Shown here: one piece after another, positions 48,613 to 64,000 of the stretch | Position numbering within the stretch: position 1 is the stretch's first letter | Layout of the letters: every line of letters starts with the position of its first letter | Assembly: GCA_019187105.1 (NCBI GenBank) | Contig: JABAQM010000001.1 | Location: forward strand, 1,178,001 to 1,242,000 | Origin: Fimbriimonadaceae bacterium | Lineage (GTDB): Bacteria > Armatimonadota > Fimbriimonadia > Fimbriimonadales > Fimbriimonadaceae | Reading direction: 5' to 3' | DNA length: 64,000 bases | Notes under the pieces: generated by a model | What the model saw: the letters and a program-made list of their open reading frames with translations, nothing else | Databases searched by the model: none | Told to the model about the DNA's origin: nothing | Program-made: the position numbers and the translations under genes

Positions 48613-49852
48613 TCGATATCACCCGATTCAGTATCTCTAACAAGAATTCGTCGCCAAAACTGTCGTTGATGACCTCAACGGATTGCTTGGCATCTGAAAT
48701 TAAGAGGTTCTGAGGAGCAAGAAACATTCGCTCCGGCTGGCAACATACCGAACATTCGGCAGGGTCGAAGTAGAAAGTCCTGTCCTTCGTCTGCACAACT
48801 ATCTCGTCGTTGCTTACGAAGACGTGCCGCCCACGGCATCTCAGATTTCGGTAATTCTCAAGCCCACTAAAGCCCAAGAAGAGCATGAAGAGGCCGACGA
48901 ACGGGCTGGCGACAAAAACCAGGGCCCCAAAAGAAAGCAGTGGGAAAGGCGCTGCCAACGAAAGCAGGTCGCCGAAACTCCGCGCTCGTAGCGGCCTGAC
49001 CTCTTGCGTCGACCATCGAAGATTGGCAATCTGATCACGGGCCAGTGCCTGTAGCCGAACCCACCGGGCATGACGGAGCGAAACCCAGACCAGCATCGTC
49101 GCCCCAATGACGAGCACTCCGGTGGCGAGCCACGTATTGAGATCCCAGCCAGAGACGGCGGTCAGTAGCCAAGCTCCGCAACCGGTGACGCCGAGGATGA
49201 GGGCAATTGATAGGGTGGTCGAGCGCGCCAGGCTCTGAAGGACGTTTCCCCTTGTCGCGGGCCAGTGTTCTCGCACTGCATTCGCACTGAGTCGTAGGTC
49301 CAGTTCCTCAATGAGCGAGGGGAACTGCTGGAATTCGTAGACGGAACTGCCCAACAGAACTCTGGAGTTCACAGCGCCGGCCGCATCAAGCATCTCGAGA
49401 TACTGGTATCCGCTTTCCTGAATGAACCGGTAGCCCCCAAAATCGGCCCATGGCTCATCTGCCAACAAGCCTTCGTGCCCAGTCGCGCGCCAACCGTTCT
49501 CGTCGAATGTCAGCTTCGTTGCCCGAAAGTTGCGAACCGGTAAACGGCCCAACAGCGCCAGTATCGAGTACAACAGCGCACCGCACGACAGAGTTATTAC
49601 TGCTCCGCGGAAGACAAAGAACGCCCCTTGGATCGCTGCAACAATGCCGACCACGCAAAGAACGCTGACGAGAACCATCTCGCGCTTGTTGGATTCGTTT
49701 GGTAGGTGGAAACAAACGGTTCCGCCGATTCGCTCCACCGACCGCTGCTCAACATGCCCAGTCCGACCGTACCACTGAACGATCGCACCCCAGGCGCGGC
49801 GAAGCTTGCCGGGAGGGCCGACTGGATTAGATTCCCGCCGACGTCGAGTCAT
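48560..49852 (-). CDS. Multi-span membrane protein, paralog of the downstream gene
   Basis: 430 residues with a basic N-terminus (MTRRRRESNP), a hydrophobic pair (VLVSVLCVVGIVAAIQGAFF, VITLSCGALLYSILALLG), a second pair near 210-260 and a third near 310-345. Its layout and C-terminal motif match the gene at 47362. It may sense or transport something in the inner membrane; nothing in the sequence identifies it. ATG 49852 gives the first basic stretch; TATCAT is 9 nt upstream. Confidence 0.75.
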   Translation of the reverse strand: MTRRRRESNPVGPPGKLRRAWGAIVQWYGRTGHVEQRSVERIGGTVCFHLPNESNKREMVLVSVLCVVGIVAAIQGAFFVFRGAVITLSCGALLYSILALLGRLPVRNFRATKLTFDENGWRATGHEGLLADEPWADFGGYRFIQESGYQYLEMLDAAGAVNSRVLLGSSVYEFQQFPSLIEELDLRLSANAVREHWPATRGNVLQSLARSTTLSIALILGVTGCGAWLLTAVSGWDLNTWLATGVLVIGATMLVWVSLRHARWVRLQALARDQIANLRWSTQEVRPLRARSFGDLLSLAAPFPLLSFGALVFVASPFVGLFMLFLGFSGLENYRNLRCRGRHVFVSNDEIVVQTKDRTFYFDPAECSVCCQPERMFLAPQNLLISDAKQSVEVINDSFGDEFLLEILNRVISNAKVDTPVAKVVNPAFR

Positions 49853-49887
49853 TGGCCTAACATGATACGACCGCACGAGGAAGGGGC

Positions 49888-49931
49888 CGAAAAATTAAGA
49901 AGCCCCGCTCCGAGGGCTGGAGTCGAGGCTT
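49888..49931 (-). terminator. Intrinsic terminator of the pil-aro-rpe-ribD operon
   Basis: On the minus strand AAGCC...GGCTT with an inner CTCC...GGAG stem is followed by CTTAATTTTT, about 95 nt after the ribD stop. Confidence 0.8.
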
Positions 49932-50024: not shown

Positions 50025-51044
50025 TTAGGTTCTCCGGTACCTAAGAGCAACGTCCGCGCCGAGCCGGAAGGTTTCCATCAGGTTCAATTTGGTTTCCTGA
50101 CCCCCTAAAAATGCTGGGGTCCCATCACCTAGCGTACAGGGAGCAATCAAGACAATGAGCTCGTCAAACGTGGCGTCTTGTAGGAACGATGCCGTTGTCC
50201 GGGGCCCTCCTTCCACCAGAACCCCGATCTCGCCGTTGGCAAACAACGCCCCCGCAACCGACTTTGGACTGAGTTCCGGTGCATGGATCTCAAAGTCCTC
50301 GGCCGCGGCCGAGTCTACGAGCCGAAAGGCCCTCCCCGGACCTTTGAATAACCGGGCATCGTGAGGAACACGGCGGTTTGGGTCGATAACGTAGCGGCTC
50401 GGTTGATTGACGACCTCCGGAATTCGGGAGGTAAGCAGGGGATCGTCGATAACGGCCGTGGACGCTCCGATCAGAACCGCCCCCATTTCCGCCCGGAGCT
50501 GGTGAGTCCAAGTTCTTGCTTCCTCGCCCGTCAGGTCCGTTCGCGTCCCTTCTCGGGCAGCAACCTTGCCATCCAGCGACATCGCCAGCTTCAGGATGAT
50601 GTACGGTCGCTTGTGGCGCATGGCATGGAGAAAGGTCGGGTTTGCGGCCTCACAATCGGACTCGAGCACGCCGGAGTCCACAACCAACCCCGCCTCACGG
50701 AGCCGCTCCGCCCCGCCGGCCGCTCGAGGATTCGGATCGGGCGCACCGATCACCACGCGGGCCACGCCCGCTTTCAGGAGCGCCTCGGTGCAGGGCGGCG
50801 TTCTGCCGTGGTGGTTGCAGGGCTCAAGCGTGACGTATGCCGTTGCGCCGTGACTGAGCGCGCCCGCTTCCGATAAGGCATTAACTTCAGCATGGGGCTG
50901 CCCTGCCGCCAAATGGCTCCCTAGGCCCACTAGACGGCCATTCTGGACGATGCAGCAGCCGACACGGGGATTTGGTGCAGGAAAGCCATGCGCGGCCTGT
51001 TCGACGGCCAGGCGCATCCAGCGTTCATCTTCGCTTCTGGGCAT
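50025..51044 (-). CDS. ribD: Bifunctional riboflavin deaminase/reductase RibD
   Basis: 339 residues. The deaminase domain shows HAEVNAL and the zinc motif PCNHHGRTPPC; the C-terminal half is the reductase (MSLDGKVAAREGTRTDLTGE). It turns the GTP-derived pyrimidine into the 5-amino-6-ribitylamino uracil phosphate. ATG 51044 has GAGG 3 nt upstream and overlaps the preceding small gene by 20 bp. It is the last gene before the terminator; no FMN riboswitch is found upstream and no other rib genes are near. Confidence 0.95.
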   Translation of the reverse strand: MPRSEDERWMRLAVEQAAHGFPAPNPRVGCCIVQNGRLVGLGSHLAAGQPHAEVNALSEAGALSHGATAYVTLEPCNHHGRTPPCTEALLKAGVARVVIGAPDPNPRAAGGAERLREAGLVVDSGVLESDCEAANPTFLHAMRHKRPYIILKLAMSLDGKVAAREGTRTDLTGEEARTWTHQLRAEMGAVLIGASTAVIDDPLLTSRIPEVVNQPSRYVIDPNRRVPHDARLFKGPGRAFRLVDSAAAEDFEIHAPELSPKSVAGALFANGEIGVLVEGGPRTTASFLQDATFDELIVLIAPCTLGDGTPAFLGGQETKLNLMETFRLGADVALRYRRT

Positions 51045-51321
51045 GGTCCTCTAAGGTGCTCTCGATCAGGCCCTGCAGGTTCTTACCGGACTCTTCGAGG
51101 AATTCCTTGCGCGTTCTTCGCATCACGAGGAGGGCCAGGATCGCAGTGACCAGAAAAACGGTGGCGGTGAGTCCGAAGTACATGAGCACCCGCAGGCCGT
51201 AGCGAGCCAGCTCTTGCTTGGTCGCGGTGTCGGCGGGCTTCGGTCCAACGATCCAGGGCCACCCGACCAGCAGGACAACGCCAGTGAGAAAGAACGCAGT
51301 CGTCCAGATCTTCAGGCGCAT
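51025..51321 (-). CDS. Small two-helix membrane protein
   Basis: 98 residues with two hydrophobic helices (IWTTAFFLTGVVLLVGWPWI and YFGLTATVFLVTAILALLVM) and a charged C-terminal tail KNLQGLIESTLEDHAQKRR. ATG 51321 overlaps the rpe stop by 10 bp, so it is coupled to rpe. No family is recognised. Confidence 0.8.
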   Translation of the reverse strand: MRLKIWTTAFFLTGVVLLVGWPWIVGPKPADTATKQELARYGLRVLMYFGLTATVFLVTAILALLVMRRTRKEFLEESGKNLQGLIESTLEDHAQKRR

Positions 51322-51956
51322 GCCGACCGGAGCCTCGCCACGCCTTCTTCCGGTGTCGAAGCGCTGGAAAGGAAGCTGCCGGCAACGAAGGTATCGGCGC
51401 CGGCCCGCCATGCCGCTCCGATCGTCTCCGCGTCGATCCCGCCATCGACCTCGACCGACAGATGGGGGGCAAGCTCCCGAATCCGCCGGACCTTCGCAAG
51501 ACAGGAGGGGATCAGGCATTGTCCACCCCAACCTGGGTTGACGGTCATAACCAAGGCAAGGTCCAAGTCGTCCTTCAGCTCGAGGATCGGTTCCACCGGG
51601 GTGCCGGGGTTGATCGCCAAGCCGGCTTGGACCCCTAACGACTTCAGGTGCTGAACGAGGCGATGGGCGTGGTTAGTGGCCTCGGCGTGGAAGACAACTC
51701 TAGAGCACCCGGCGGCAATAAAGGCGTCAAAGTGCCGCTCAGGGGTCTCGGTCATGAGGTGGACCTCGAACGGCGTCGCTACGATCTTACGCAGGTCAGC
51801 CACCCAACCGGCGCCAAAGGTGATAGGAGGGACAAACTGCCCATCCATCACGTCAAAATGCAGCCACTCCGTCTGGGCCGCTTCGAGCGCTCGGACGAAC
51901 GCCGGCAGCCGCTCCAGAGGGCAGGAAAGGATAGAAGGCGCGAGCCTCGGCTTCAC
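51312..51956 (-). CDS. rpe: Ribulose-phosphate 3-epimerase, GTG start
   Basis: 214 residues, the normal length. Active-site pieces are in order: APSILSCP, HFDVMDGQFVPPITFG, the metal-binding VMTVNPGWGGQCLIPS and VEVDGGID. It interconverts ribulose-5-phosphate and xylulose-5-phosphate in the pentose phosphate pathway. The GTG at 51956 overlaps the pseudokinase stop as GTGA. Its place after a PASTA kinase-like gene recalls the prkC-rsgA-rpe order of Bacillus. Confidence 0.96.
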   Translation of the reverse strand: MKPRLAPSILSCPLERLPAFVRALEAAQTEWLHFDVMDGQFVPPITFGAGWVADLRKIVATPFEVHLMTETPERHFDAFIAAGCSRVVFHAEATNHAHRLVQHLKSLGVQAGLAINPGTPVEPILELKDDLDLALVMTVNPGWGGQCLIPSCLAKVRRIRELAPHLSVEVDGGIDAETIGAAWRAGADTFVAGSFLSSASTPEEGVARLRSACA

Positions 51957-53689
51957 TCGGGACTCCCCACGGCCTTTGCCCGTTTTTGCATGACGAGCTC
52001 GCCATCGAAAAAGATCCGGAAGATCGCCGACTCGCCGTAGCCGATCGCCTCGACTTCGAATTCTTCTCCGGGAGAGTGGTCTTCCTCGTAGACGGTGCGC
52101 GTTTCCCTGGCATCGGTAATGTCCACGCGCACGGTTGCTGCGGAATCGTCGATCGGCATCTTGATCTTCAGCGTGTACTTGCTCGGCTTCGAATCTGCCG
52201 CGGTTGAAGTCGACCGGGCGTTATCGCCGCCGCTCACGTCGACGCGAATCCGGGTCCAGCGTTCCACGCGCTTTCGAGGCTCAGGGATCTGGTTGACGAT
52301 CTTGCCGACATCGATGTGCCGATCGCGAACCGTGCGTACATTGGAGTCCAGCTCGAGCTGGAGGTTCGCAAGAAGGGACTTTGCGTCGTCGACGGTGCGA
52401 CCGCGGAGATCGGGAACATCGACAAACTTGCTGCCCTGACTGACGATCACCGACACAAAGGACCGCACCTGTGCTCCGGGAGGTGGGTTGGATTCCAGGA
52501 TCGCGCCGTCGGGAAACTGCTCGCTTGGACGCTTGCCGGCGATCTTCATCGTCAGCCCCATGTCCTGGAGGCGTGCACTCGCTTCGTTGCTGCTCAGGCC
52601 GACCACGTTTGGCACCTTGACCAGCTTTTTCTTGTTAACGTTGAACCACCCCCACGCCCCGATCGTTACGACGAGCACGCCCAAGCAGACGTACACGGAC
52701 CACATCAGCCATGGCGGCACATCCGGCTGCACCACATCGCGAGATGCCTTGGGCGGCTTCTTGTCGGCCGGATTGGCGACGTTAAGCTTCGGCACCACGT
52801 CCGGGACTGGTTGCGCCTTTGGTTGAACACGATCGCCACCGATCGGCCATGAAATCGGGCGACCGAACCTCAGCGCATCATTCAACGCTCGCAGATCGCG
52901 CAGCATCGCCGCCGCGTTGGCATATCGATGGATGGGATCCTTGGAGAGCGTCTTCTTAACGATCTCTTCGAGCACGATGGGAACTGCGGGGTTGATTGAC
53001 CTAAGATTTGGCACCGGCGCCGTGCTGTGCTTCATGGCCACGACCATCGGGGAATCACCCACGAAGGGCTGACGCCCGGTCAGCATTTCGAAGAGCAGAA
53101 TTCCTACCCCGTAGAGATCGGTGGCCGGCGAGACCATGCTGCCGGAGTTGATCTCAGGCGCCAAATACGGCGCCATGTCCGGCAGGGCCACAGCCCCCGC
53201 GGTCCGACTGCTGCTGTACGCCTCCCAGATGCCGGTGTTGCGCAACTTGACGGCGCCATTGGCCGAGACGATGACGTTACGCGAGGACACATCGCCATGG
53301 GTCACTCCGGCGCGGTGAGCGGCGTCGAGCGCTTCGGCGATTCCGATCGCGACGCTGACCGCCACAGGCGCCGAAAGGGGGGCTAACTTACGAATCCGGT
53401 CCTGAAGCGTAAATCCTGGCGAGAGATCTCCGACGATGAATGCAGAACCATCATGGTCGTCGACTTCCAGTACCCGCTCGATGCCCTCATGCTGCAGCTG
53501 GCTTAGGTTGCCCACGACTTCGCGGAGTTTCTCGATGAAACGCGCTTCGCGGTCGAATGGAGGCTGGAGAACACGTACGGCGACTTCGCGACCGGTAACC
53601 CGGTCCTTTGCCTTATACAGGACGAACATCGCATCTTCGTCGACCTGTTCGACGAGTTCATAGCGAATGCGCAGGATGGCCCCGATCAT
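51953..53689 (-). CDS. PASTA-domain pseudokinase (PknB/PrkC-like, catalytic residues lost)
   Basis: 578 residues: kinase-like domain (about 8-270), one transmembrane helix (WSVYVCLGVLVVTIGAWGW, near 328-346), then two PASTA domains (PNVVGLSSNEASARLQDMGL and VPDLRGRTVDDAKSLLANL) and a C-terminal beta-rich tail. Catalysis is not expected: the Gly-rich loop has no glycines (VDEDAMFV), VAIK is VAVR (Arg39), HRD is HGD (131-133) and DFG is NTG (151-153). APE-like LAPE and other structural parts remain. PASTA domains bind peptidoglycan in known proteins, so it may sense the wall and act as a scaffold. It is coupled to both neighbours by ATGA and GTGA. Confidence 0.9.
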   Translation of the reverse strand: MIGAILRIRYELVEQVDEDAMFVLYKAKDRVTGREVAVRVLQPPFDREARFIEKLREVVGNLSQLQHEGIERVLEVDDHDGSAFIVGDLSPGFTLQDRIRKLAPLSAPVAVSVAIGIAEALDAAHRAGVTHGDVSSRNVIVSANGAVKLRNTGIWEAYSSSRTAGAVALPDMAPYLAPEINSGSMVSPATDLYGVGILLFEMLTGRQPFVGDSPMVVAMKHSTAPVPNLRSINPAVPIVLEEIVKKTLSKDPIHRYANAAAMLRDLRALNDALRFGRPISWPIGGDRVQPKAQPVPDVVPKLNVANPADKKPPKASRDVVQPDVPPWLMWSVYVCLGVLVVTIGAWGWFNVNKKKLVKVPNVVGLSSNEASARLQDMGLTMKIAGKRPSEQFPDGAILESNPPPGAQVRSFVSVIVSQGSKFVDVPDLRGRTVDDAKSLLANLQLELDSNVRTVRDRHIDVGKIVNQIPEPRKRVERWTRIRVDVSGGDNARSTSTAADSKPSKYTLKIKMPIDDSAATVRVDITDARETRTVYEEDHSPGEEFEVEAIGYGESAIFRIFFDGELVMQKRAKAVGSPE

Positions 53690-53907
53690 CCGGCATCCTC
53701 CGCTCGCTTTTGATGGTCGTTTACGAAACCGATGGCGATGCCGCCGCCAAGCACGATAAGCGCCAGCATCGAGATTGCCGGCGTGTCGATGGCCGAGCTA
53801 TAGCTGATCGGGTTTCCGAAGGCAGCAGCGTATTGACTAGCCAAATACCCTCCACCCATCAGCACGAGGGCCGTAACAATAAGAATGGACCGCAAGAGCT
53901 CGATCAT
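53686..53907 (-). CDS. Very small two-helix membrane protein
   Basis: 73 residues with helices LRSILIVTALVLMGGGYLAS and ISMLALIVLGGGIAIGFV. Its start overlaps the aroB stop as ATGA and its stop overlaps the pseudokinase start as ATGA, so it is firmly part of the operon. No homolog is recognised; it may pair with the pseudokinase in the membrane. Confidence 0.8.
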   Translation of the reverse strand: MIELLRSILIVTALVLMGGGYLASQYAAAFGNPISYSSAIDTPAISMLALIVLGGGIAIGFVNDHQKRAEDAG

Positions 53908-54926
53908 GCGTGCAGTAGGTTGCGAACCGTGTCCAATGGAATGTTATCGACAAGTTTACACCGACCAACTCTTTCCAGCAGGCTCATGGTCAGCCCCTCG
54001 CCCTGGCGTTTCTTGTCGACCAGCATTGCCTTCAAGACGTCATCCGCGTCCCAGACGCCGTTCCAATCCGTCGGCAGACCGGCACCCGCGAGTCCTTCAA
54101 TAACCTTAACGACGGCTTCAGGCTCGGTAACCCCAAGCTTGGCGCCAACCTTGGCTTCGATCGCCATCCCAATAGCCACGGCCTCGCCGTGTAAGAGCTC
54201 ACGGTAGCCGAGCATCCGCTCGATCGCGTGGCCAACGGTGTGTCCGAAGTTGAGAATCGCGCGAAGGCCCGTTGTTTCAAACTCATCCTCGATAACGACG
54301 CGAGCCTTATGTCGGACGCAGAGCTCGATAAGGTCCTGAAGCCCAGCGGTATCCGCCCTCCACTGGGTTCCCGAGAGGGTTCCGACAAGATCGGCATCCA
54401 TGATGAAGCCGTACTTCCAAACCTCCGCCATCCCATTCGTGAACTGCCTTTGGGGAAGCGTTTGCAGAAACTCGTTCGCGATCCTGACCTCTGCGGGTGG
54501 ATGAAAGGCCCCGGCGAGGTTCTTTCCAGCCCGGAGATCGATCCCGACCTTTCCCCCAACGGAACTGTCGACCATCGCCAGCAATGACGTCGGTATCTGG
54601 ATGTAACGCACCCCGCGCATGTAGGCCGCGGCGGCATAGCCTGCGAGATCCCCGACCACCCCACCCCCCCAAGCCACCACGGTCCCATTCCGGCGGAGTC
54701 CCTCTTCGCCCAACCACTCGAGAACGTCTTCAAATACGCGGACCGTCTTGGAACTCTCGCCGGCGGGCACGACCTTAAGGGACCGCCAGCTACGCGCCAT
54801 CTCTGGCCACGCAGCAGCCACGTTGGTGTCGGTCACGACCAGGGCCTCTTCCAACCCCTTGGTGACCTCGCCAATCGGAAGGAACCGTACGGAGTAGCTG
54901 GACCGCGATGTCTTGATTTCAACCAT
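53904..54926 (-). CDS. aroB: 3-dehydroquinate synthase
   Basis: 340 residues. The NAD-binding glycine-rich stretch GGGVVGDLAGYAAAAYMRG and the signature IQIPTSLLAMVDSSVGGKVG are both intact, as is the metal-binding His in NFGHTVGHAIE. It makes dehydroquinate from DAHP, the second step of the shikimate pathway. ATG 54926 overlaps the aroK stop by 8 bp. It is a little shorter than Escherichia coli AroB (362). Confidence 0.96.
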   Translation of the reverse strand: MVEIKTSRSSYSVRFLPIGEVTKGLEEALVVTDTNVAAAWPEMARSWRSLKVVPAGESSKTVRVFEDVLEWLGEEGLRRNGTVVAWGGGVVGDLAGYAAAAYMRGVRYIQIPTSLLAMVDSSVGGKVGIDLRAGKNLAGAFHPPAEVRIANEFLQTLPQRQFTNGMAEVWKYGFIMDADLVGTLSGTQWRADTAGLQDLIELCVRHKARVVIEDEFETTGLRAILNFGHTVGHAIERMLGYRELLHGEAVAIGMAIEAKVGAKLGVTEPEAVVKVIEGLAGAGLPTDWNGVWDADDVLKAMLVDKKRQGEGLTMSLLERVGRCKLVDNIPLDTVRNLLHA

Positions 54927-55431
54927 GGCGCTCGATCTCCTCGATGGCGATCCGAGCTACGGTTTCGGGATCGTCGCCATGCAGATGAAGGTGGATTTCG
55001 GCCTGTTCATAGAGGGGCCTTCGCCGGGAGAGCAGATCCAAAACCCGTTGTTCCCAGCCTTCTTCGACCAGCAACGGCCGGCGATGCCGGCCCCGCTCCA
55101 AGCGCTCGAGGAGCACTTCAGTTTTGACATCGAGGAACACCGTGAGACCAAGCCGGCGCATTTCGATCCAATTGGCTTCGCGCTGGACGATCCCTCCGCC
55201 CGTTGCCAGAACATAGGCGCCCGGGTCGAGGCTGCGCAGCAAGGCGGTTTCGTGGTCCCGAAATGCGGCTTCGCCGTATACGGCAAACAGGCGGGCGACG
55301 CTATGCCCTAGCCGGTGCTGGAGCAGCATATCGCTGTCGACAAACTCACGCTTGGATGCGGCGGCCATCGCTCTGCCGATGGTCGATTTGCCTGACCCCA
55401 TCATGCCCACCAAAATCCACGCCCTGTCCAT
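54919..55431 (-). CDS. aroK: Shikimate kinase
   Basis: 170 residues, normal length. Walker A is GMMGSGKST, followed by DSDMLL, FRDHETALL and the substrate loop ATGGGIV, then the LID region RGRHRRPLL. It phosphorylates shikimate with ATP. The ATG at 55431 (MDRAWILVGMMG) has no Shine-Dalgarno and lies 10 nt after a hairpin; a GTG at 55470 is inside the hairpin and gives an unusual N-terminus. It overlaps aroB by 8 bp. The pilQ-aroK-aroB order matches proteobacteria. Confidence 0.95.
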   Translation of the reverse strand: MDRAWILVGMMGSGKSTIGRAMAAASKREFVDSDMLLQHRLGHSVARLFAVYGEAAFRDHETALLRSLDPGAYVLATGGGIVQREANWIEMRRLGLTVFLDVKTEVLLERLERGRHRRPLLVEEGWEQRVLDLLSRRRPLYEQAEIHLHLHGDDPETVARIAIEEIERHG

Positions 55432-55441
55432 AAATATGAAA

Positions 55442-55469
55442 TGGCGGCAAGCCAGAAGGCTTGCCGCCA
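55442..55469 (-). terminator. Hairpin between the secretin gene and aroK
   Basis: A perfect 12-bp stem, tggcggcaagcc with ggcttgccgcca, around agaa. The minus-strand sequence after it is ATTTCATATTTATG, T-rich but with no solid T-run, and it contains the aroK ATG. It may be a partial terminator or an attenuator rather than a full stop. Confidence 0.55.
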
Positions 55470-55491
55470 CGTTTTACCCACCTTTGTCAGG

Positions 55492-57111
55492 TTACGGCGT
55501 TCCGACCATATTCTCGTCATCGATAATCGTCGGGGTGACGAAGATCAGAAGCTCGCTGTTGTTCTTTTCCCGGGTCGTCGATCGGAAGAACTGGCCCACG
55601 ATGGGCAGATCGCCGAGGATCGGGAATCGGGACTGCGAGGACTGATCCGACTTTCGCGTCAAGCCGCCGAGCACGATCGTCTCGGTGTCCTTTACGCGAG
55701 CAACGACGTTGATCGACTGGAAGAGCTGGTCGGGAATTTCTTCACCGTTCGGACCGCGGCGCAGTTGGCCGAAGTCGCCGATTTGCGGGGTGAGGTTCAT
55801 CGTAACCGTTCGGTCGCCTTCGTTGATACGAGGTCGGACGATCAGGAAGGTGTTCACCGGGAGTGCCACCGGGTTAACCGAAGTGACGATGCCACCCGGG
55901 CCGTTCTGCACGGTCGTGACGAAGATGGTGGTGATGACCTGCTGCTGGACCACGGCCACCTGGTTGTTCAGCGTTCGGAGGATCGGCGCATTAACAACCT
56001 TTCCTTGGCCGCTCGTAAGGAGGGTTCGAAGTCGCGAGGTGATATTGCCGAAAGCATAGTTCAGGAAGATCGGATCGCTCTGTCGGGCGAAGGTGCCGGG
56101 TCGGTTACCGGTTACGACGGTTCCACGCTGATAGAGCCAGTCGAAGCCGAGCGATTGGCTCGCGCCTTGGCTCGTGGTAACGAATTCGACCTTGATCAGG
56201 ATCTGCTTCGGAGCATTGTCGAAGTCGGCGATGATGCGTCGCAGTCGATTGACCGCATCATCTTCGCCAATGACGTACAGGCTGTTGTCGGTTGGGTCGT
56301 AGATGACCTTTTCGATGCCGTTCGGCACGAGGCCCTGACCACCGACGAAGTTGCCGGTGTTTTGCTGTCCGCCGGCGCCGAGACCGCCACCAGGCTGTCC
56401 GCCACCACCGGGAGCTCCAAGACCGCCACCCTGCGCAGAGGCCTCTCCGGGAAGGAGAACGCCGTTACCGGCGCCATCGTTGATCGGCGCCTGGACAGGC
56501 TGCTGGGTCATATTGCTCTGAGGCTGGGCGATCGGTGCGAACTGGCTCGCTCCGGCGACGATAACCTGGCTGGTCGGATAGCTGCTGGTGCCGGGTCGTG
56601 TCAACGCGGCGGCAGCATTTAGCTCGCGAAAGCCCTCAAGAGGATCGAACGTGACTTCCTTCGTGATGATGTCGTAGATCATCTTTGGGTCGGCGCGAAG
56701 GATCTTGATCTTACGATAGACAATCGGCTTCTTCGCCTCAGGAACGACCACGTTGGTGGTGCCGCCATCGGACTTCACCGGAGGTTTGCCTTGCCGGATG
56801 ATGTAGACGCCGTTCTCATCCCGCTCGGCCCAACCGCCAGCGGCTTGGCAGATGTATCGAATCGCCTCTTCCGCCGTGACGCGGTTCAGCGAAAGCTCGA
56901 TTTTCTTAAACGGTACGTCCGTCGGCTCGATCACGAACTGGAGGCCGGTTTGGCGAGAGAGGACTTGCGTTGCCGCCAAAAGGTCTGCGTCCTTTAGCTT
57001 GAGGTCAACGAGCTGAGCTGGACCGGAGTCCTGTGCTACCGCCATGGTCGCCATGGATACGGCGGCCGCGAGGACGGCCAGCTTACTACGCCAATTCTTC
57101 CAATACGTCAT
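55492..57111 (-). CDS. pilQ: Type IV pilus/type II secretion secretin (PilQ-like)
   Basis: 539 residues: signal peptide ending near MAVA-QDS, an STN-like N-terminal domain (about 30-105), a further N-domain, a Gly/Gln-rich linker (near 220-255), and the C-terminal secretin domain. The latter has KVEFVTTSQGASQSLGFDW, TETIVLGGLTRKSD and LGDLPIVGQFFRSTT followed by ELLIFVTPTII. It should form the outer-membrane pore through which the pilus passes. It is shorter than most PilQ (600-900) and has no AMIN domains. AAGGAAGG lies about 10 nt before the ATG. Confidence 0.93.
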   Translation of the reverse strand: MTYWKNWRSKLAVLAAAVSMATMAVAQDSGPAQLVDLKLKDADLLAATQVLSRQTGLQFVIEPTDVPFKKIELSLNRVTAEEAIRYICQAAGGWAERDENGVYIIRQGKPPVKSDGGTTNVVVPEAKKPIVYRKIKILRADPKMIYDIITKEVTFDPLEGFRELNAAAALTRPGTSSYPTSQVIVAGASQFAPIAQPQSNMTQQPVQAPINDGAGNGVLLPGEASAQGGGLGAPGGGGQPGGGLGAGGQQNTGNFVGGQGLVPNGIEKVIYDPTDNSLYVIGEDDAVNRLRRIIADFDNAPKQILIKVEFVTTSQGASQSLGFDWLYQRGTVVTGNRPGTFARQSDPIFLNYAFGNITSRLRTLLTSGQGKVVNAPILRTLNNQVAVVQQQVITTIFVTTVQNGPGGIVTSVNPVALPVNTFLIVRPRINEGDRTVTMNLTPQIGDFGQLRRGPNGEEIPDQLFQSINVVARVKDTETIVLGGLTRKSDQSSQSRFPILGDLPIVGQFFRSTTREKNNSELLIFVTPTIIDDENMVGTP

Positions 57112-57157
57112 CGAATCACAACCTTCCTTGTTCCAAGCTTCTGTTCTACATGTTTGT

Positions 57158-57189
57158 TGGCGTCGACGAAGTGTTTCGCCGACGCCAGA
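57158..57189 (-). promoter_or_regulatory. Intercistronic hairpin between the STN-protein and secretin genes
   Basis: tggcgtcg (57159-57166) pairs with cgacgcca (57181-57188) and an inner cgaa/ttcg extends it. No T-run follows, so it looks like an mRNA processing or stability element rather than a terminator. Confidence 0.5.
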
Positions 57190-57203
57190 GTTCTTATTAA
57201 GGC

Positions 57204-57920
57204 TTAGCGACCGATGCCGCCGCCACGGCCCATGCCGCCGCCACCGAAGCCGCCGCCGCCGAAGCCGCCGCCACCCAGTCCGCCGCCGCCAAAGCCGCCG
57301 CCGCCCACGCCGCCGCCGAAGCCGCCGCCGCCAAGTCCGCCGCCGAAGCCGCTGCCCATGCCGCCACCGAGGCCGCCGCCACCGAAGCCGCCGCCACCCA
57401 TGCCGCTACCGCCGCCCATGCCACCGACAATCGTGCTCCATTCCGGCTGAAGCTGGAAGTTGGGCTGGTCGGACGTGATCAGCATCGCGATGAGCGCGGG
57501 ATCAGCGTATCGAAGCTGAATTCGAACCGGAGGCTTGTCGCGCTTGACATTGGTGAGCGTTTCGCTTCCGCCGGTGCCGGCGTTGTCGACCTGGGTCTCG
57601 CGAAGTCGAATTACGTAAATGCCGGCTTCAACCTTGTAGGTCGCGCTAACCTGGTTCAGGATATTGCGAAGCGCCGTCTCAAACGGCACCTTCTTCAGGC
57701 TAACGGTAACCGTACCGGTCACGTTCGAGTCAACCGTGAAGTTCACGTTGACTTCTTTAAAAAGGATCTTGAGAGCTTCGCGAACGTCGGCCTGGTCAAG
57801 TTCCAGAGAATCGATAATCTTGTCCCGGGGATCGTTCTGCGCGCTTGCAGCCGTTGGAACGGCGAACAGGAGTGTCGCTGCCAGAATCGATGCCAAGAGG
57901 TTCTTTGCCACTTTAAACAT
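57204..57920 (-). CDS. Exported STN-domain protein with a long Gly-rich tail
   Basis: 238 residues: signal peptide (1-28, ending ASAQ), an STN/secretin N0-like domain (about 35-110, with SLELDQADVREALKILFKEV and VSLKKVPFETALRNIL), a short strand region, then about 65 residues made almost only of Gly with Met, Phe and Leu in GGGGFGGG-type runs. It looks like a detached N-domain of a secretin with a flexible tail. It lies exactly between pilP and the secretin, so it probably belongs to the pilus envelope complex. GGAGG lies 8 nt before the ATG. Confidence 0.88.
   Translation of the reverse strand: MFKVAKNLLASILAATLLFAVPTAASAQNDPRDKIIDSLELDQADVREALKILFKEVNVNFTVDSNVTGTVTVSLKKVPFETALRNILNQVSATYKVEAGIYVIRLRETQVDNAGTGGSETLTNVKRDKPPVRIQLRYADPALIAMLITSDQPNFQLQPEWSTIVGGMGGGSGMGGGGFGGGGLGGGMGSGFGGGLGGGGFGGGVGGGGFGGGGLGGGGFGGGGFGGGGMGRGGGIGR
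57214..57430 (-). repeat. GGC/GGY codon-rich low-complexity tract
   Basis: Imperfect tandem runs of ggcggcggcttcggc-type units encode the Gly-rich tail of the STN protein. Slippage could change its length between strains. Confidence 0.8.
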
Positions 57921-57994
57921 TTAATGTTCCTCCGAAAGTTTGAAGCCCAAAGTTTGCGATGGTTATCATCATTTTAGCTTAGGCTCCTCGAAAA

Positions 57995-58708
57995 CTATCT
58001 ATCGCCCATGCCTCCGCCTTCACCGTCGAGGCCGCCACCGCCGCCGGTTCCGCCGCCTCCGCCTCCGCTTCCGCCGCCGCCAGAGGTTCCGCCGCCTCCG
58101 CCGCCGCCGAAATCGGCTCCGCGGCTTTGGAGCCTAACGACAAAGGTCGAGGGACGCATATCGGCAGATCGCCGTAGAACGGCCCGCTCTTCATCGATGC
58201 TGACGACCGTCCATTCGGTTCCTTGAATCTGCTGACCCGGTCGAATCTCAATCGTGTCTCCGGGCGAACGCTCAAGGAGCGCCCCGATGCCGTCGCCGAT
58301 GAGAACCGCTGACAGCCGCCATCCTTGCGGGACCGGCGCCATGACCGTCGTCTCGTCGGGCGGGGGTGGGGGTGGCTCGTAAAAAACCGAGAAGCTGCCA
58401 CCAAAGTCGGCCAAGACACGCTCGCTCGCCTGTTGTCGGTCAAAGACCTTCTCGACAGCAAGCAAGGCAAACGGGTCGGCTCGTCCACCGAAGTCTATTG
58501 AATTCGCAAGGTCGAAGGTTGACTTGTTGCCCGGATCGGCGATAATAGTCGCGTTTCGCCCAGCTTCAGCTGAGAGGTTTAGCTCCGGCGCCTGAAAGCG
58601 GCTATGAGTTGGCTGATCCTCCAGCGGAACGGGCGGCATGCAACCAGCGCCGGCCACCACGAGGGCGATCAGAGCTGCATTTCGACTCAACTTCAATACG
58701 TTTGCCAT
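57995..58708 (-). CDS. pilP: PilP-like pilus assembly lipoprotein with Gly-rich tail
   Basis: 237 residues: lipoprotein signal ending AGAGC (lipidated Cys23), a disordered Pro-rich middle (PPPPPPDETTV), the PilP-type beta domain (WRLSAVLIGDGIGALLERSP and GQQIQGTEWTVVSIDEERAVL), then 45 residues rich in Gly and Ser. PilP links the inner-membrane PilNO to the secretin. Identification rests on the fold pattern and the pilMNO-x-pilQ position. Sequence identity to known PilP is low. Confidence 0.78.
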   Translation of the reverse strand: MANVLKLSRNAALIALVVAGAGCMPPVPLEDQPTHSRFQAPELNLSAEAGRNATIIADPGNKSTFDLANSIDFGGRADPFALLAVEKVFDRQQASERVLADFGGSFSVFYEPPPPPPDETTVMAPVPQGWRLSAVLIGDGIGALLERSPGDTIEIRPGQQIQGTEWTVVSIDEERAVLRRSADMRPSTFVVRLQSRGADFGGGGGGGTSGGGGSGGGGGGTGGGGGLDGEGGGMGDR

Positions 58709-58722
58709 TCAACAGTTCCTTC

Positions 58723-59502
58723 TTATAGGTCCGGAGGTGGTGGTCCGCCACGCGGTCCGCCTCCGCCACCTCCGCCAAATCCCGGCGTGCCCGGTCCTCC
58801 TCCGCTGCCGCTTGCAGGCGCTGCGCCTTCCGGCACGGGGGGCGAGACCGTCTCGCCACGGATATAGGCTACGAGCGATAGATTGTATGTGGCGAGCAGA
58901 TTCGGCGAGGTTCCGGTAATCCTCAGCCCGTCGGTCACCGCCAGGTAGTTCGGCATCGTGCTCCAGGCCCGAACATGCTGGTCGATTTGATCGAACGTGC
59001 CTCGGACCGAAACTGTACCGAGATCGTAGATCGCCACAGGAAATCTGATGCTCGGATAGTTGAAATAGGTTTCAACCACGTTCGTTGCGGATGTGCTCGG
59101 GAACGGAATCGTCGGTCCGTTCTCGACCGTAACCCCGCCGCGACGGAGTTGGCGATTCAAGTCGCGTTGAACTTCATTGCGGAATTTGCGCGCGTCGATG
59201 ACCAGTTGCCATCGGTTGCGGGCGAGGTCGATGCCGCCTGCCCCGAGGCCATGTGGGGGCGTGTGGGCGGCCACGACCGCCTGCCACTCGTCGGCCTTGA
59301 GCTGTACCATTTCCACCGCTTTCAGAACGCGCTGTTCGGCTCGCTTCTGCTTGCCAGCCTCCGTCTTGAGGAGGTCAACCTGTGTCAGAAGGTTCTCGGT
59401 TGTGGCCTTATTCGGCAGGTAGTGGTGGAAGAGAGCGAACGACAGGACACCGATACTGATCGAGAGTCCAAGGAGAATGATGGTGAGAGGACTGAGTTTC
59501 AT
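58723..59502 (-). CDS. pilO: PilO-like pilus assembly protein with Gly/Pro-rich tail
   Basis: 259 residues: short cytoplasmic start MKLS, one helix (LTIILLGLSISIGVLSFALF), a coiled-coil-like stretch (LLTQVDLLKTEAGKQKRAEQ), a periplasmic ferredoxin-like fold with VRGTFDQIDQHVRAWS (typical of PilO), and a tail of Gly and Pro ending GGPPPPDL. PilN and PilO form the inner-membrane alignment complex. Only 12 bp separate it from pilN. Confidence 0.85.
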   Translation of the reverse strand: MKLSPLTIILLGLSISIGVLSFALFHHYLPNKATTENLLTQVDLLKTEAGKQKRAEQRVLKAVEMVQLKADEWQAVVAAHTPPHGLGAGGIDLARNRWQLVIDARKFRNEVQRDLNRQLRRGGVTVENGPTIPFPSTSATNVVETYFNYPSIRFPVAIYDLGTVSVRGTFDQIDQHVRAWSTMPNYLAVTDGLRITGTSPNLLATYNLSLVAYIRGETVSPPVPEGAAPASGSGGGPGTPGFGGGGGGGPRGGPPPPDL

Positions 59503-59514
59503 CGCGTTTTCTCC

Positions 59515-60450
59515 TTACTCGTCATCCAAGGCTGTCTTGGCGCCGGGTCGTCGATCCGGATTGATTCCCGCTGCTCCGCCACCCTTTGCGGGCCCCGGGT
59601 TCGTCGGTCCGGCGTCAGGATTGGCGCTGGTTGTGCCACCGCCACCCGTTCCACTTGGTGCTGGAGCCGGAGCCGAGGCGGCGCCCTGTGCGGCCAGCGT
59701 TGCGCGCGGATTTGGAGTTTGGATATTGCGGTCGTTGAGGACCACGGTAAGCGTAACTTGGCTCCAGTCTGGCATCGCACCCTTCGGCGAGGCGTCGGGC
59801 GTACCGAAGCCGCCTACGCCAGTAAAGCCGGTGGTCGTACTGCCAGAAGCCATCAAGAAGTACAGGCGATCGACGGGATCGCTCGGCTGGCGACCTTGGC
59901 CGGGCCGAATCGGATAGCCGACCTGGTCTTCCGTCACAAGATTGGGGACAAACTGATCGTTGATCACGTAACCGGCTCGGCTCACCGTCTGCGCGCCTGG
60001 AATTCTAAGCAGCGCCAACATAATGTCGGCGTATTGCTGCTGACTCTTCAAAACGCCGGTCATGGTCACCGTGCACTGCTTGTCGGTTACCGGAGCGGCG
60101 GAAATACTGGTGACACGGAACCAGGACGGAACGTAGCCGAGGCACTCCCGATAAAGATCGACATAAGTCGAGTTGTGCTTCATCATCGCCTGGGCCAAGT
60201 CGATGTTGCGGATCAGGACCTGGGACTGAGCCATGATATCATCCGCCATTTTCGATGTGGCGACCGCCTTTTCTGCAGCCGGCGTCCAGTCTTGAACCAG
60301 CTTTTCGGCATCTTGCTTTGTGTTCGTCGACTGCATGATCAGGAAGACGGAAGCACCAATGGCGATCACGGCCATCAGAATGCTCAAAATGGTCGCGGTC
60401 TTTGCCGCGCCGGCCTTGGATACATGGGTCGGGAGAAGGTTTAGCTTCAT
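59515..60450 (-). CDS. pilN: PilN-like pilus assembly protein with Gly/Pro/Ala-rich tail
   Basis: 311 residues: cytoplasmic MKLNLLPTHV, the canonical PilN start that binds PilM, one helix (TATILSILMAVIAIGASVFL), coiled-coil region, and a periplasmic domain with VTSISAAPVTDKQCTVTMTG. The last 55 residues are Ala, Pro, Gly and Thr (GTGGGGTTSANPDAGPTNPG). It is longer than the usual PilN (180-230) mainly because of this tail. Confidence 0.88.
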   Translation of the reverse strand: MKLNLLPTHVSKAGAAKTATILSILMAVIAIGASVFLIMQSTNTKQDAEKLVQDWTPAAEKAVATSKMADDIMAQSQVLIRNIDLAQAMMKHNSTYVDLYRECLGYVPSWFRVTSISAAPVTDKQCTVTMTGVLKSQQQYADIMLALLRIPGAQTVSRAGYVINDQFVPNLVTEDQVGYPIRPGQGRQPSDPVDRLYFLMASGSTTTGFTGVGGFGTPDASPKGAMPDWSQVTLTVVLNDRNIQTPNPRATLAAQGAASAPAPAPSGTGGGGTTSANPDAGPTNPGPAKGGGAAGINPDRRPGAKTALDDE

Positions 60451-60456
60451 GCGGCT

Positions 60457-61755
60457 TTACTCAAAGGCAATATGCAGTCCGTTACCGATAGCTACGGCAA
60501 ACGCCTCTGCATTTTCCTCCAACAGACTTTGGTCGAGCTTCTTTGCAGATATGGACAGCCCCTGAAATGGATCGTGCATCGCTGCGGGCAATCCAAGTGA
60601 GGAGGCCAAGAATGGCGCCAGGCCGCGGAGGCGGGCGCCGCCGCCGCACAGGACGATTCGGTTGACGTCTCCGCCTTTCGAGCGGAAGTAGTCTACAGAC
60701 CGCCGGACTTCGGCGACAAACTCGTCTAAAACGCCAGCCATCGCGTTGTAGATACGGACGCTGTCAGCGCTTGAAACTGAGGGCACTGCGGCTGGTTCGG
60801 CAGCTGGAACCGGAATCTCCGCTGGCTCGAACGCTCCGGCAGCTTCCACCGGTGGCGCGGCGTAGGGATCGAGCGGGACATCGGGAACAGCCATACCGCC
60901 GGGCGCCAACGCCGGATTCATGAGAGCGGGGTCATCGGCGAACGGATTGTAAGCCTGAAATGCCTGGGTAGGAGCCGCGCCGAATGAAGCGCTCATCATG
61001 CCCATCGAGGCAGACTCCGGAATGTCGGCATGTTGAACCTTCATCGCCTCTGCTTCCTCGACCGAGAGGTTCAAATTATTGGCAATCGCTTCGGTAAACA
61101 TTTCTCCGCCGATGGGGACCTGTCGCGGTAGCAACAGCTGGCCGTCGCGATACATGTTTATCGAGGTTGTTTTGTGTCCCACGTCAACGACGCAGACCAC
61201 CTCATTGGGATCACTCGACCCGCTCACCTTGAGCGACCGTGCGATTCCGAGCGGTTCGACATCGATCGCAGCAATTGGCTTGCCCGCCTTCTTGGCGATA
61301 CCGATCAAGGTATCAACCGCCGACTGGGGCGAGATGGCCATCACCACGTCCAAATTCTGGCTCGCGGCATCGGCCGGCTCAAACGATCTGAAGTCACTGA
61401 CGACCGTGCTCTCGGGAAACGGGATGTTTCTCGTGATCTCCCAATTCATATGCTCCTTGAGCTCATTGGGGTTCATCCGAGGAACTTCCAGCGTCCGCAC
61501 GAGCACCGACTGTTGGCCCGCTACCGAGAAAACGAAGTGGCTGGCGGTCGCTCCCGAAGTGGCCAGGGCCTGCTTGATCGCCGCGCCGATTGCATCGACA
61601 TCGTAAACCCCGGTGTGGTCGACGGTTCCTGGAGGCGTGTCGGTCATCGTGACCGCAGAGATCGTAGGTTCCTTACCGGCGAGCTTAATCTCGGCGATTT
61701 TGATCTTCTGGCTACCGATATCGACGCCGATCGCGCTGCTTAACTTCTTCCCCAT
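60457..61755 (-). CDS. pilM: PilM-like actin-fold ATPase with a Pro/Ala-rich insert
   Basis: 432 residues, compared with about 350 in typical PilM. Actin/FtsA-like motifs are present: IGVDIGSQKIKIAEIKL (phosphate 1), VVDVGHKTTSINMYRDG (phosphate 2) and IVLCGGGARLRGL (adenosine). An insert of about 85 residues (near 240-325) is rich in Ala, Pro and Met. PilM sits on the inner face of the membrane and binds the PilN N-terminus. It is the first gene of the operon behind a strong promoter. Confidence 0.92.
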   Translation of the reverse strand: MGKKLSSAIGVDIGSQKIKIAEIKLAGKEPTISAVTMTDTPPGTVDHTGVYDVDAIGAAIKQALATSGATASHFVFSVAGQQSVLVRTLEVPRMNPNELKEHMNWEITRNIPFPESTVVSDFRSFEPADAASQNLDVVMAISPQSAVDTLIGIAKKAGKPIAAIDVEPLGIARSLKVSGSSDPNEVVCVVDVGHKTTSINMYRDGQLLLPRQVPIGGEMFTEAIANNLNLSVEEAEAMKVQHADIPESASMGMMSASFGAAPTQAFQAYNPFADDPALMNPALAPGGMAVPDVPLDPYAAPPVEAAGAFEPAEIPVPAAEPAAVPSVSSADSVRIYNAMAGVLDEFVAEVRRSVDYFRSKGGDVNRIVLCGGGARLRGLAPFLASSLGLPAAMHDPFQGLSISAKKLDQSLLEENAEAFAVAIGNGLHIAFE

Positions 61756-61792
61756 GTAGCCGTTGCCTTACCCTTCCCTGCGAGGCTTGGTT

Positions 61793-61822
61793 AGCATAGC
61801 ACTCGCTCAGGATGCCTGTCAA
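61793..61822 (-). promoter_or_regulatory. Sigma-70-type promoter of the pil operon
   Basis: Perfect -35 TTGACA (61822-61817), 18-bp spacer and -10 TATGCT (61798-61793). The leader to the pilM ATG is about 30 nt and contains GGAAGG. Confidence 0.8.
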
Positions 61823-61942: not shown

Positions 61943-64000
61943 TCATTGGTTAGGTGGAACCGCTGAGAAGCGCGGCGCCATGGTCTGGAAGTAGACGTCG
62001 GTAACGCCACCTCTCGTACTCGTCCAGAAGAGCCAGAACAGGCCCGGCCGCCGCAGGCCGAGGTCGACCCCATTCATATTGATCGGGTCGATTGCCGCGG
62101 TCAGGGCTGCCTCGTTGACGGCCTGTTCGATCGGCACCGTCGCCTCGACCGTTTCCTCGATCAAAGTTACCGGGGCCTGAATGTTGATGTTCGCGATCGT
62201 CCTGCCCTGCTCATCCAGTCCGTTGTAGCGGACCGAGAGGTTGTTCATGTCCTCCAACTCGGAGGTGAAGTACACCTTGCCGGTTGACGGCTCGACCTGA
62301 TAGAAGGAGCCGGCGGGCATGCCCGTTACTTGGAAGGAAGTGATGCGCCCATCGATGTCGGTCTCAACTGCGGTAGGCAGCTGAATACCGAATCTGAGGG
62401 TTCTCATGAAGGGACGCGAGATTTGAGTACCTTCGGAGGCCGTGCGCGTGAACGTGAGCAGGTAACGGTCATTGCGTACAGGATCGGGCGCCGCCGCACC
62501 GGAGTTCTGCGAGGTACCCCAGTAGCTAAACCCGGCAAGATCGCTTCGCTCGCCATAGAACCGGTCGTCGAACACGAGCGTGCCGTTGCGATAGTTCGCC
62601 GCCAAGCCCGTGCTAACCCGGATGGCGTTTGGCGCGCTAATGACTTCCAGCCGCATGTCGCGCGGGATCATCGCACCCGAGAATCGAACGGAACCGACCC
62701 GTGGATCGACGTAGACCTTACCGCCCAACAGGCAGTCGTAGACCAGCGTGAAGCTGAGCGAGTCGTATTGTCGGCTGTTTTTGTCGATGATCGACGTTCG
62801 GCTCGAGCCAACCCGACTGACGATATCCACGTTGCCAAGGTCCGCCTCGCGGGTCGACCAATCGATGCCGTTCGACCAATAGACGCCGGCAACCGGATCC
62901 TGAACCAGGGCCGAATATCCCGTTGGGAACGTCCGCAGCCGGGGTCGCTCGCCACGCGGAGCCACGGGGAAGCCGCGTCCGTCGGAAACGAGCCTCATCA
63001 GGAAGGCTTCGCTCTGGGCCCGGCCGCGAAGTTTGGCCGTATACAGGAGATCGATGACCGCATCCGATCCGGAGTTACGGTATCGACGCACCTGGGCCGA
63101 CAGGGATGTGATCGACTCATAGCCGTTGCCGACCTCCAAGCTCCTCGGTCGAGACCACGTATTATTGTTGCCGGTGAAGGTCGCATTGAAGACCTGCGAC
63201 AAGCCGCCGGCGCTGGCGATGTAAAACACCGATGCGTTGTTGCCGACCTGGATGAGCGCAGGTCGACCCTTGCGGACTTCCGGATCATAGCCGTTGCCGT
63301 TGCTGTCGGCCATGGCAATCGGATCGCTAATCGAAATCGATCCATCCTGGGCGACCGTGACTCGTGCGATGAACAGCTTGCTGACGAGTTCCAGCGCACC
63401 GCGGGTGCTTCGTTTCATCGCCTCGCCCACGAATGACATGTAAAGATTGGTCTCGAAGCTCCGATTGCCAGGGGCATCCAGCGGATTGAACGGCGCATAG
63501 GAGGCAAAGGTCGGCGAGCCAAACTTGATCGACTCGGGGACGATCGACTCGCCGGTGGCCAATGGTCCGAAATGCACGTCCGGGTTGTTTGGATACGGGC
63601 CAACGCTCTTGCGGAACCAGGAGGCGCCGCTCACCGGAGCGAATGCGTTCAGATCGCGCATCGGGCTCGATCCCGGCGCTCCGTTTTGACCGGATCCGTT
63701 AAGGGCGGCAACGTAGATCCGCCACTGGTCGTTTCGAGTGCTCGGATCGGTGAAGTCGGTCTCCGTGCGATTGCGCGGATTCCAGCCAGGAGTGCTACCG
63801 CTCTCAAGTCGGTCACTCGACCAAGCTACAACCAGATTGCCGTTGCCGTCGCGGATACCGCTGGGTCCGCGGTTGGACCACAGGAACGACTCCGTTCCGT
63901 TAACGATGTCCTCGACCATCGGCGCCGACTTGGTGGTTCGGCGGTTGGTCAGACGCGCTTCGCGAACGGTGAACTGCAGAGCGAAACCTGGATCGGCGTA
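61943..64000 (-). CDS. Large secreted-type protein of unknown function (partial, N-terminus beyond right edge)
   Basis: The frame is open from the stop at 61943 to the right edge, at least 685 residues; an ATG at 63919 is internal to it. The sequence is rich in Asn, Ser, Thr, Gly and Arg with beta-strand patterns (NLVVAWSSDRLESGSTPGWN, FTGNNNTWSRPRSL, VDVYFQTMAPRF). Near the end a domain reads AGSFYQVEPSTGKVYFTSELED, like cadherin/Ig-type folds. Because it lies just upstream of the pil operon it might be a surface adhesin or pilus-associated protein, but no motif shows that. No known family is recognised. Confidence 0.8.
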   Translation of the reverse strand, partial: YADPGFALQFTVREARLTNRRTTKSAPMVEDIVNGTESFLWSNRGPSGIRDGNGNLVVAWSSDRLESGSTPGWNPRNRTETDFTDPSTRNDQWRIYVAALNGSGQNGAPGSSPMRDLNAFAPVSGASWFRKSVGPYPNNPDVHFGPLATGESIVPESIKFGSPTFASYAPFNPLDAPGNRSFETNLYMSFVGEAMKRSTRGALELVSKLFIARVTVAQDGSISISDPIAMADSNGNGYDPEVRKGRPALIQVGNNASVFYIASAGGLSQVFNATFTGNNNTWSRPRSLEVGNGYESITSLSAQVRRYRNSGSDAVIDLLYTAKLRGRAQSEAFLMRLVSDGRGFPVAPRGERPRLRTFPTGYSALVQDPVAGVYWSNGIDWSTREADLGNVDIVSRVGSSRTSIIDKNSRQYDSLSFTLVYDCLLGGKVYVDPRVGSVRFSGAMIPRDMRLEVISAPNAIRVSTGLAANYRNGTLVFDDRFYGERSDLAGFSYWGTSQNSGAAAPDPVRNDRYLLTFTRTASEGTQISRPFMRTLRFGIQLPTAVETDIDGRITSFQVTGMPAGSFYQVEPSTGKVYFTSELEDMNNLSVRYNGLDEQGRTIANINIQAPVTLIEETVEATVPIEQAVNEAALTAAIDPINMNGVDLGLRRPGLFWLFWTSTRGGVTDVYFQTMAPRFSAVPPNQ

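Follow-up and report, generated by a model that had tools for sequence, protein, structure and literature searches.

How did genes for a type IVa pilus, the shikimate pathway, a kinase-like PASTA protein and the use of pentose phosphates come to stand in one row, and what does the kinase-like protein do among them? The question is raised by thirteen minus-strand genes in a 64,000-nucleotide stretch (the window, meaning the whole stretch analysed) of contig JABAQM010000001.1 from a Fimbriimonadaceae bacterium, an armatimonadotal organism with a host genome of 3.3 Mb. The answer favoured here, with a probability of roughly 0.6, is that the row represents an ancient joined operon, attenuated at a hairpin after pilQ and encoding a non-phosphorylating, peptidoglycan-binding PASTA scaffold. 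Two gene blocks of ancient origin are joined at this locus, and a single promoter was detected for the resulting operon. In Gram-positive bacteria, PASTA kinases serve as the main sensors of the wall. A member of the class Fimbriimonadia stains Gram-negative and carries lipopolysaccharide genes (PMC4072686), and it is a whole phylum with pilus secretins that keeps this relative of the PASTA kinases.

The thirteen open reading frames (ORFs) claimed by the first-pass annotation are all present. Their order is pilM-N-O-P, an STN gene, pilQ, aroK, aroB, a small membrane gene, the PASTA pseudokinase, rpe, a second small membrane gene and ribD, with lengths in amino acids (aa) as follows.

60457..61755, minus strand: pilM, 432 aa; Pfam PilM_2, E 1.6e-45.
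59515..60450, minus strand: pilN-like gene, 311 aa; named from its position and its conservation in the class, with no clear Pfam match.
58723..59502, minus strand: pilO-like gene, 259 aa; named from its position, with weak PilO/T2SSM matches in relatives.
57995..58708, minus strand: pilP-like lipoprotein with a Gly-rich tail, 237 aa; named from its position, with a weak T2SSC match in one relative.
57204..57920, minus strand: stand-alone STN (secretin N0) domain protein, Gly-rich in its tail, 238 aa; STN, E 1.5e-6, slightly short of the cut-off.
55492..57111, minus strand: pilQ, secretin, 539 aa; Secretin, E 6.8e-33.
54919..55431, minus strand: aroK, shikimate kinase, with an ATG at 55431 and a longer GTG ORF from 55470; SKI, E 2.4e-39.
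53904..54926, minus strand: aroB, 3-dehydroquinate synthase, 340 aa; DHQ_synthase, E 2e-43.
53686..53907, minus strand: small two-helix membrane protein, 73 aa, with a 4-nt overlap with both neighbours; a similar small gene occurs in relatives.
51953..53689, minus strand: PASTA pseudokinase, 578 aa; Pkinase, E 2.5e-24, and PASTA, E 3.2e-21 (two domains).
51312..51956, minus strand: rpe, ribulose-5-phosphate 3-epimerase, 214 aa; Ribul_P_3_epim, E 2.5e-62; its start overlaps the pseudokinase stop by 4 nt.
51025..51321, minus strand: second small membrane protein; start inferred from the MRLK start of relatives.
50025..51044, minus strand: ribD, bifunctional riboflavin biosynthesis enzyme, 339 aa; RibD_C, E 1.4e-38, and deaminase, E 1.6e-20.

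Pfam places the actin-like PilM protein and the PilQ secretin in type IVa pilus order, and the PilN, PilO and PilP slots have the right number, order and size, with weak, sub-threshold profile matches in relatives (PilO 4e-4, T2SSM 6e-4, T2SSC 2e-4). By ORF coordinates, the pilus part is spaced by gaps of 6 nt (pilM/N), 12 nt (N/O), 14 nt (O/P), 74 nt (P/stn), 92 nt (stn/pilQ) and about 60 nt (pilQ/aroK). From aroK onward the genes overlap, by 8 nt (aroK/aroB), by 4 nt at each of aroB/small membrane gene, small membrane gene/pseudokinase and pseudokinase/rpe, by about 10 nt (rpe/second small membrane gene) and by about 20 nt (second small membrane gene/ribD). The single-domain STN gene between pilP and pilQ is present across the phylum, with an STN match of E 1.7e-11 in relative L072, and its product may aid secretin assembly.

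Across the class Fimbriimonadia, the pseudokinase was found in 106 of 113 genomes, and in the window's own family, Fimbriimonadaceae, coordinate comparison puts aroB directly upstream of it in every genome in which both genes were located (73/73). The full order, pilMNOP-stn-pilQ-aroK-aroB-small membrane gene-pseudokinase-rpe-small membrane gene-ribD, recurs in twenty longer loci of families f1, f3 and f5, within the limits of the sequence fetched for each. Outside the class it returns in many families (f10-f13, f16, f19, f24, f26, f30-f34), often with aroC between pilQ and aroK. A PASTA-only protein follows aroB in f40, f44 and part of f41; in f42 this place is taken by a protein of roughly 510 aa that retains a kinase remnant. 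In all these cases rpe lies elsewhere. The first-pass annotation had allowed for an order absent from all related genomes; checked in Armatimonadota, related genomes share it, and an order peculiar to the window's genome is rejected, being found across Fimbriimonadaceae and other armatimonadotal families. Judged from these gene orders, the block is most likely an ancient, Armatimonadota-wide operon. In f16 and f33 (L078, L082), aroB and the PASTA kinase are separated by an inserted gene, whose products of 365-382 aa belong to one shared family.

The block might be held by history and shared expression only, as a set of housekeeping genes behind a pilus promoter with no functional link among pilus, wall and metabolism. 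This account is a tentative possibility. It draws on the age of both constituent blocks, pilus-aroCKB and prkC-rpe-ribD, on the lineages without a kinase domain, which have rpe elsewhere, and on family f2, where aroB has split off in most genomes and pseudokinase, rpe and ribD are still together in genome G041. The 4-base overlap between kinase stop and rpe start (NTGA), however, is kept in 32 of 42 loci over deep divergence, and the reduced genome G029 (1.5 Mb), in which no aroB was found, still has pseudokinase-rpe as the only remainder of the block. Inertia does not easily account for so much. A 4-base stop/start overlap is a usual sign of translational coupling.

Both halves of the block occur outside the phylum. 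Searching named genomes for proteins related to the aroB-linked one yielded 80 loci, mostly from Bacillota and Actinomycetota. Three of them (L129, L141, L181), armatimonadotal or near it by gene order, show aroB-kinase-rpe-ribD, with pilus genes too in L129 and L141. The other 77 loci come from outside Armatimonadota, and in none of them does aroB lie in the flank fetched around the PASTA kinase, which spans 10 kb or less. Downstream of the Bacillota PASTA kinase rpe is common, separated from it by rsgA in the loci inspected; ribD also follows rpe in L137, L138 and L149, and prpC stands upstream in L138 and L149. The other half appears as pilM-pilN-(pilO)-aroC-aroK-aroB in L232, as pilM-aroB in L231 and as aroC-aroK-aroB with pilB-, pilT- and pilC-like genes in L235, the Bacillota pilO, pilB, pilT, pilC, aroC, rsgA and prpC calls being made by eye from sequence. 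Genome G254 carries both blocks (L137 and L232), apart. These loci bear out the proposal of the first-pass annotation that two distant gene orders meet here: pilus-aroCKB and prpC-prkC-rsgA-rpe-ribD are distinct loci of the same Bacillota genomes and are joined in Armatimonadota. Most likely, the block was made by joining pilMNOP-STN-pilQ-(aroC)-aroK-aroB to a prkC-rpe-ribD block stripped of prpC and rsgA.

The window shares with the Bacillota prpC-prkC-rsgA-rpe(-ribD) locus the PASTA kinase architecture followed by rpe, on the same strand, and by ribD as in some Clostridia and Selenomonadales. It differs in having rpe directly after the kinase, rsgA at C1:883165 and no prpC upstream, in a kinase that reads HGD and is predicted to be dead in the class, and in the pilus genes, aroB and small membrane gene that precede it. 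A loss of rsgA along with the kinase was considered; RsgA is present elsewhere in the window's genome. The order hofMNOPQ-aroKB-damX-dam-rpe, cited for Escherichia coli by the first-pass annotation, is as stated when checked in E. coli K-12, and a protein of peptidoglycan-binding type does hold the damX position, the PASTA protein lying between aroB and rpe. The E. coli loci hofMNOPQ and aroKB-damX-dam-rpe-gph-trpS thus resemble the window in pilus-type genes, aroKB, a peptidoglycan-binding protein and then rpe (PMC4981707). E. coli, however, has the SPOR protein DamX and dam in between and no kinase domain, whereas the window has the PASTA pseudokinase and a small membrane gene; common descent and convergence could each account for the likeness.

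Two elements bear on the transcription of the block.

61793..61822, minus strand: sigma-70 type promoter TTGACA-18-TATGCT with TG before the -10 (extended -10), ahead of pilM.
55441..55470, minus strand: hairpin between pilQ and aroK, 13 pairs, tail TTCATATTTA; the strongest hairpin of the region.

A scan for sigma-70 type promoters only (TTGACA-16/18-TAnnnT, 10 or more of the 12 positions matching, up to 200 bases from pilM) detected the element upstream of pilM in 26 of 31 loci across the phylum and in 0 of 31 shuffles. Before each other gene of the block, the same scan found such a promoter in 0 or 1 locus; the 34 regions before aroK and the 56 before aroB gave none. The TTGACA promoter that the first-pass annotation had placed at 61822 therefore has good support, and no other sigma-70 type promoter was detected. 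The end terminator of that annotation, near 49888-49918, is rejected, since the stem has 6 pairs, terminator-like sites in the region stand at shuffle level (15 vs 14.9), and no conserved hairpin follows ribD in relatives.

The pilQ-aroK hairpin of the window has a fold z-score of -5.4, and 0.25% of random 110-base windows score as high. A hairpin follows the pilQ stop in 82% of class loci and 77% of those outside, at median offsets of 22.5 and 28 bases, and hairpins follow the other block genes in at most 10% of loci, except for 29% after stn outside the class. Its stem sequences vary between genomes, and it is therefore the structure, not the sequence, that is kept. The hairpin probably punctuates the operon, as an attenuator or terminator. 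The single pilM-ribD transcript implied by the first-pass annotation accordingly retains one conserved promoter in its favour and is qualified by the conserved hairpin.

Two transcription units, with the hairpin as a full terminator and aroK onward under its own promoter of a type outside the scan, would fit a strong hairpin at a fixed offset after pilQ at those frequencies and its rarity after other genes. That arrangement is nonetheless rather unlikely, given sigma-70 type promoters before pilM and not before aroK or aroB, and a T tract that is weak and absent in some PASTA-only lineages. In the PASTA-only lineages L085, L086 and L088, the post-pilQ hairpin has a stem sequence in common, AACGGCAC, and its T tract is slight or absent, for which reason it is probably not an intrinsic terminator there.

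The protein at the centre of the block comprises a dead kinase domain (residues 1-270), a transmembrane segment at about 326-351 (a helix in the model), a PASTA region (357-492) and a C-terminal beta domain (503-572). The label 'pseudokinase' is right by sequence: the beta3 lysine is Arg, HRD reads HGD, DFG reads NTG with Asn in place of its aspartate, and the glycine loop is lost, with the catalytic Asp of HGD kept and the loop Asn present. Residues were counted over 53 Fimbriimonadia members and 25 aroB-linked rows outside the class. The HRD arginine is Gly in all of them (53/53 and 25/25), the beta3 lysine is kept in 5/53 and 18/25, and the DFG aspartate in 5/53 and 15/25; the full set Lys-Asp-Asn-Asp occurs in 0/53 and 10/25, and the Lys+Asp+Asp triad in 0/53 class members. 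Relatives with a full triad occur, for example, in f19 and f33. Phosphorylation control by the window protein is unlikely because the kinase appears catalytically dead in this lineage.

The domain nevertheless seems to be maintained. A stop inside the match was met in G051 and G111 only (class search), and mean pairwise identity over the 53 class members is 0.43 for the dead kinase domain vs 0.36 for the PASTA part. Open frames and a dead domain more conserved than the PASTA part argue that the kinase domain is under selection, and simple pseudogene decay is rejected on the open frames and the identity of 0.43. In the structure model, the mean predicted local distance difference test (pLDDT) score is 88, with values mostly >90 over residues 1-275, and the whole kinase fold is kept. 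Comparison with PknA (4ow8) gives Z 36.1 and a root-mean-square deviation of 1.6 A over 267 residues, the structure-alignment rows covering almost only residues 1-284. Foldseek also returned the ectodomain of Staphylococcus aureus PrkC (3py9), at E 6.6e-17 but with TM 0.15-0.25. The pseudokinase is the sole PASTA protein of the window's genome, which elsewhere encodes an intact HRD/DFG Hanks kinase without PASTA (L106, at C1:1383580).

An active atypical (non-RD) PASTA kinase, sensing wall fragments and phosphorylating substrates as PrkC does, is very unlikely here. The window protein does share an N-terminal Hanks kinase fold, one transmembrane helix and PASTA repeats with the active PASTA Ser/Thr kinases (PrkC/StkP/PknB), 47 of the 53 class members retain the HGD aspartate and 35 of them the loop Asn, Lys, Asp, Asn and the DFG Asp are present in relatives from outside the class, and two PP2C phosphatases are encoded elsewhere in the genome. 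Unlike those active kinases, however, it has the HGD Asp but is without the beta3 Lys, the DFG Asp and the glycine loop; the whole triad is found in no Fimbriimonadia member, the locus contains no prpC, and elsewhere in the phylum the kinase domain has been deleted entirely.

Several points weigh against the favoured reading, an attenuated operon with a non-phosphorylating scaffold. The T tract of the hairpin is partial, with a mean of 5.1 T of 10 in the class and 3.5 outside, so the hairpin may be a messenger RNA stabiliser rather than an attenuator. The whole aroB-linked family cannot be called dead, because 10 of its 25 rows outside the class have the full catalytic set. Some pseudokinases without the DFG Asp or the beta3 Lys also bind adenosine triphosphate or stay active.

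The descent of the family was traced with a quick tree of 51 domains, which has many weak forks and no inferred root. The aroB-linked proteins fall outside a 100/100-supported group of StkP, PrkC, PknB, PknA and the canonical PASTA kinases of other Armatimonadota; the L101 kinase remnant is too short for the tree, and L075_2626, L102, L105, L122 and L123 form long branches whose position is uncertain. The placement of the window protein outside the canonical group speaks, subject to uncertain rooting, against its being an ordinary PrkC orthologue by sequence, and that reading is rejected; gene position speaks for a PrkC-type origin of the kinase-like protein. Genomes G217 and G243 contain both an aroB-linked and a canonical PASTA kinase. 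On the tree, the lysine requires a minimum of 3 changes, the DFG aspartate 6, the catalytic aspartate 5 and the HRD arginine 1.

The six PASTA-only proteins match best the ectodomains of aroB-linked pseudokinases, with L101 first in 6/6 and a canonical kinase never in the top six. Because the ectodomain matches rank aroB-linked proteins first, the PASTA-only proteins most likely derive from the aroB-linked family by loss of the kinase domain. The kinase part would have lost its catalytic residues stepwise, with the wall-binding part retained. The families present a natural series, with all catalytic residues, a dead kinase or the wall-binding part only, mostly next to aroB, and it lets one ask which job of a PASTA kinase is more needed, wall binding or phosphorylating. 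At L105:3933-6690 (f38), a non-PASTA HGD kinase of 315 aa with the full triad adjoins a dead PASTA pseudokinase, resembling an active/inactive pair.

Among known proteins, MviN (MurJ) is a lipid II flippase. The mycobacterial MviN pseudokinase, ActPs3, is likewise a pseudokinase tied to peptidoglycan, its known mode being scaffolding (PMC12599244), but MviN is without PASTA domains and has other motif changes. The DYD pseudokinases share the beta3 Arg with the window protein, which differs in its NTG motif in place of DYD, its armatimonadotal origin and its PASTA ectodomain (PMC12599244). ActPs2 pseudokinases (beta3 Arg, HRD Asp to Asn, DFG deleted; PMC12599244) share the same Arg, whereas the window protein keeps the HRD Asp and again stands apart by phylum and ectodomain. 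A 2025 review recognises seven bacterial pseudokinase families, its text naming neither PASTA pseudokinases nor Armatimonadota (PMC12599244), and no description of the aroB-linked PASTA kinase-like family, or of any PASTA kinases of Armatimonadota, was found in the literature searched, most subscription journals being outside its coverage. In its mode of action the window protein probably resembles a pseudokinase scaffold of receptor type.

The canonical PASTA kinases of f36 and f40-f44 recall the PknB-FHA-RodA-PBP type locus of Actinomycetota, several lying near FtsW/RodA, PBP or FHA-type genes, and unlike the aroB-linked family they belong to a different clade (100/100 branch). Those of L099, L103, L109 and L110 (f36, f41, f43 and f44) have FtsW/RodA- or PBP-like genes in their vicinity, joined in L099 by genes of FHA type, and each is neighboured by an uncharacterised secreted protein of similar kind.

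In the proposed mechanism, RNA polymerase would read from the pilM promoter, and the pilQ hairpin would let part of the transcripts through or protect the pilus messenger RNA, so that the products of the wall and metabolic genes would be kept at a reduced but steady level. The PASTA protein would span the inner membrane once, its ectodomain binding peptidoglycan or its precursors. Its kinase-fold domain would perform no phosphorylation and act as a docking scaffold, by analogy with MviN and FhaA (PMC12599244). It may be a substrate or partner of the intact kinase without PASTA that the genome also encodes, in the way that MviN is for PknB. We infer the scaffold role of the pseudokinase from this analogy.

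Erythrose-4-phosphate feeds the shikimate pathway, and ribulose-5-phosphate feeds Rpe and riboflavin synthesis. The metabolic genes therefore share precursors, and aroKB-rpe-ribD possibly stay together owing to this common supply from the pentose phosphate pathway. In Bacillus, PrkC phosphorylates CpgA (RsgA), which clears erythrose-4-phosphate products, the proofreading being independent of PrkC (PMC6449344). The link between wall state and shikimate/pentose-phosphate flux that the first-pass annotation suggests is, as a direct one, a hypothesis. A broader proposal combines an Armatimonadota-wide PASTA family, whose catalysis would decay at one locus from an HGD full triad through a dead kinase to a deleted domain with the ectodomain retained, with a dead kinase co-translated with Rpe in Fimbriimonadia that would physically couple peptidoglycan state or the pilus machine to shikimate/riboflavin use of pentose-phosphate precursors. 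Taken as a whole, this is unlikely.

Around the block, a large protein without Pfam matches lies upstream of pilM on the same strand (61943-64000), its end conserved upstream of pilM in L055, L059, L064 and L067. On the other side, two adjacent membrane-protein ORFs of similar type, without Pfam matches, stand at 47362-49876 between ribD and a convergent pdxT, and pdxT is convergent 3' of ribD in many relatives as well.

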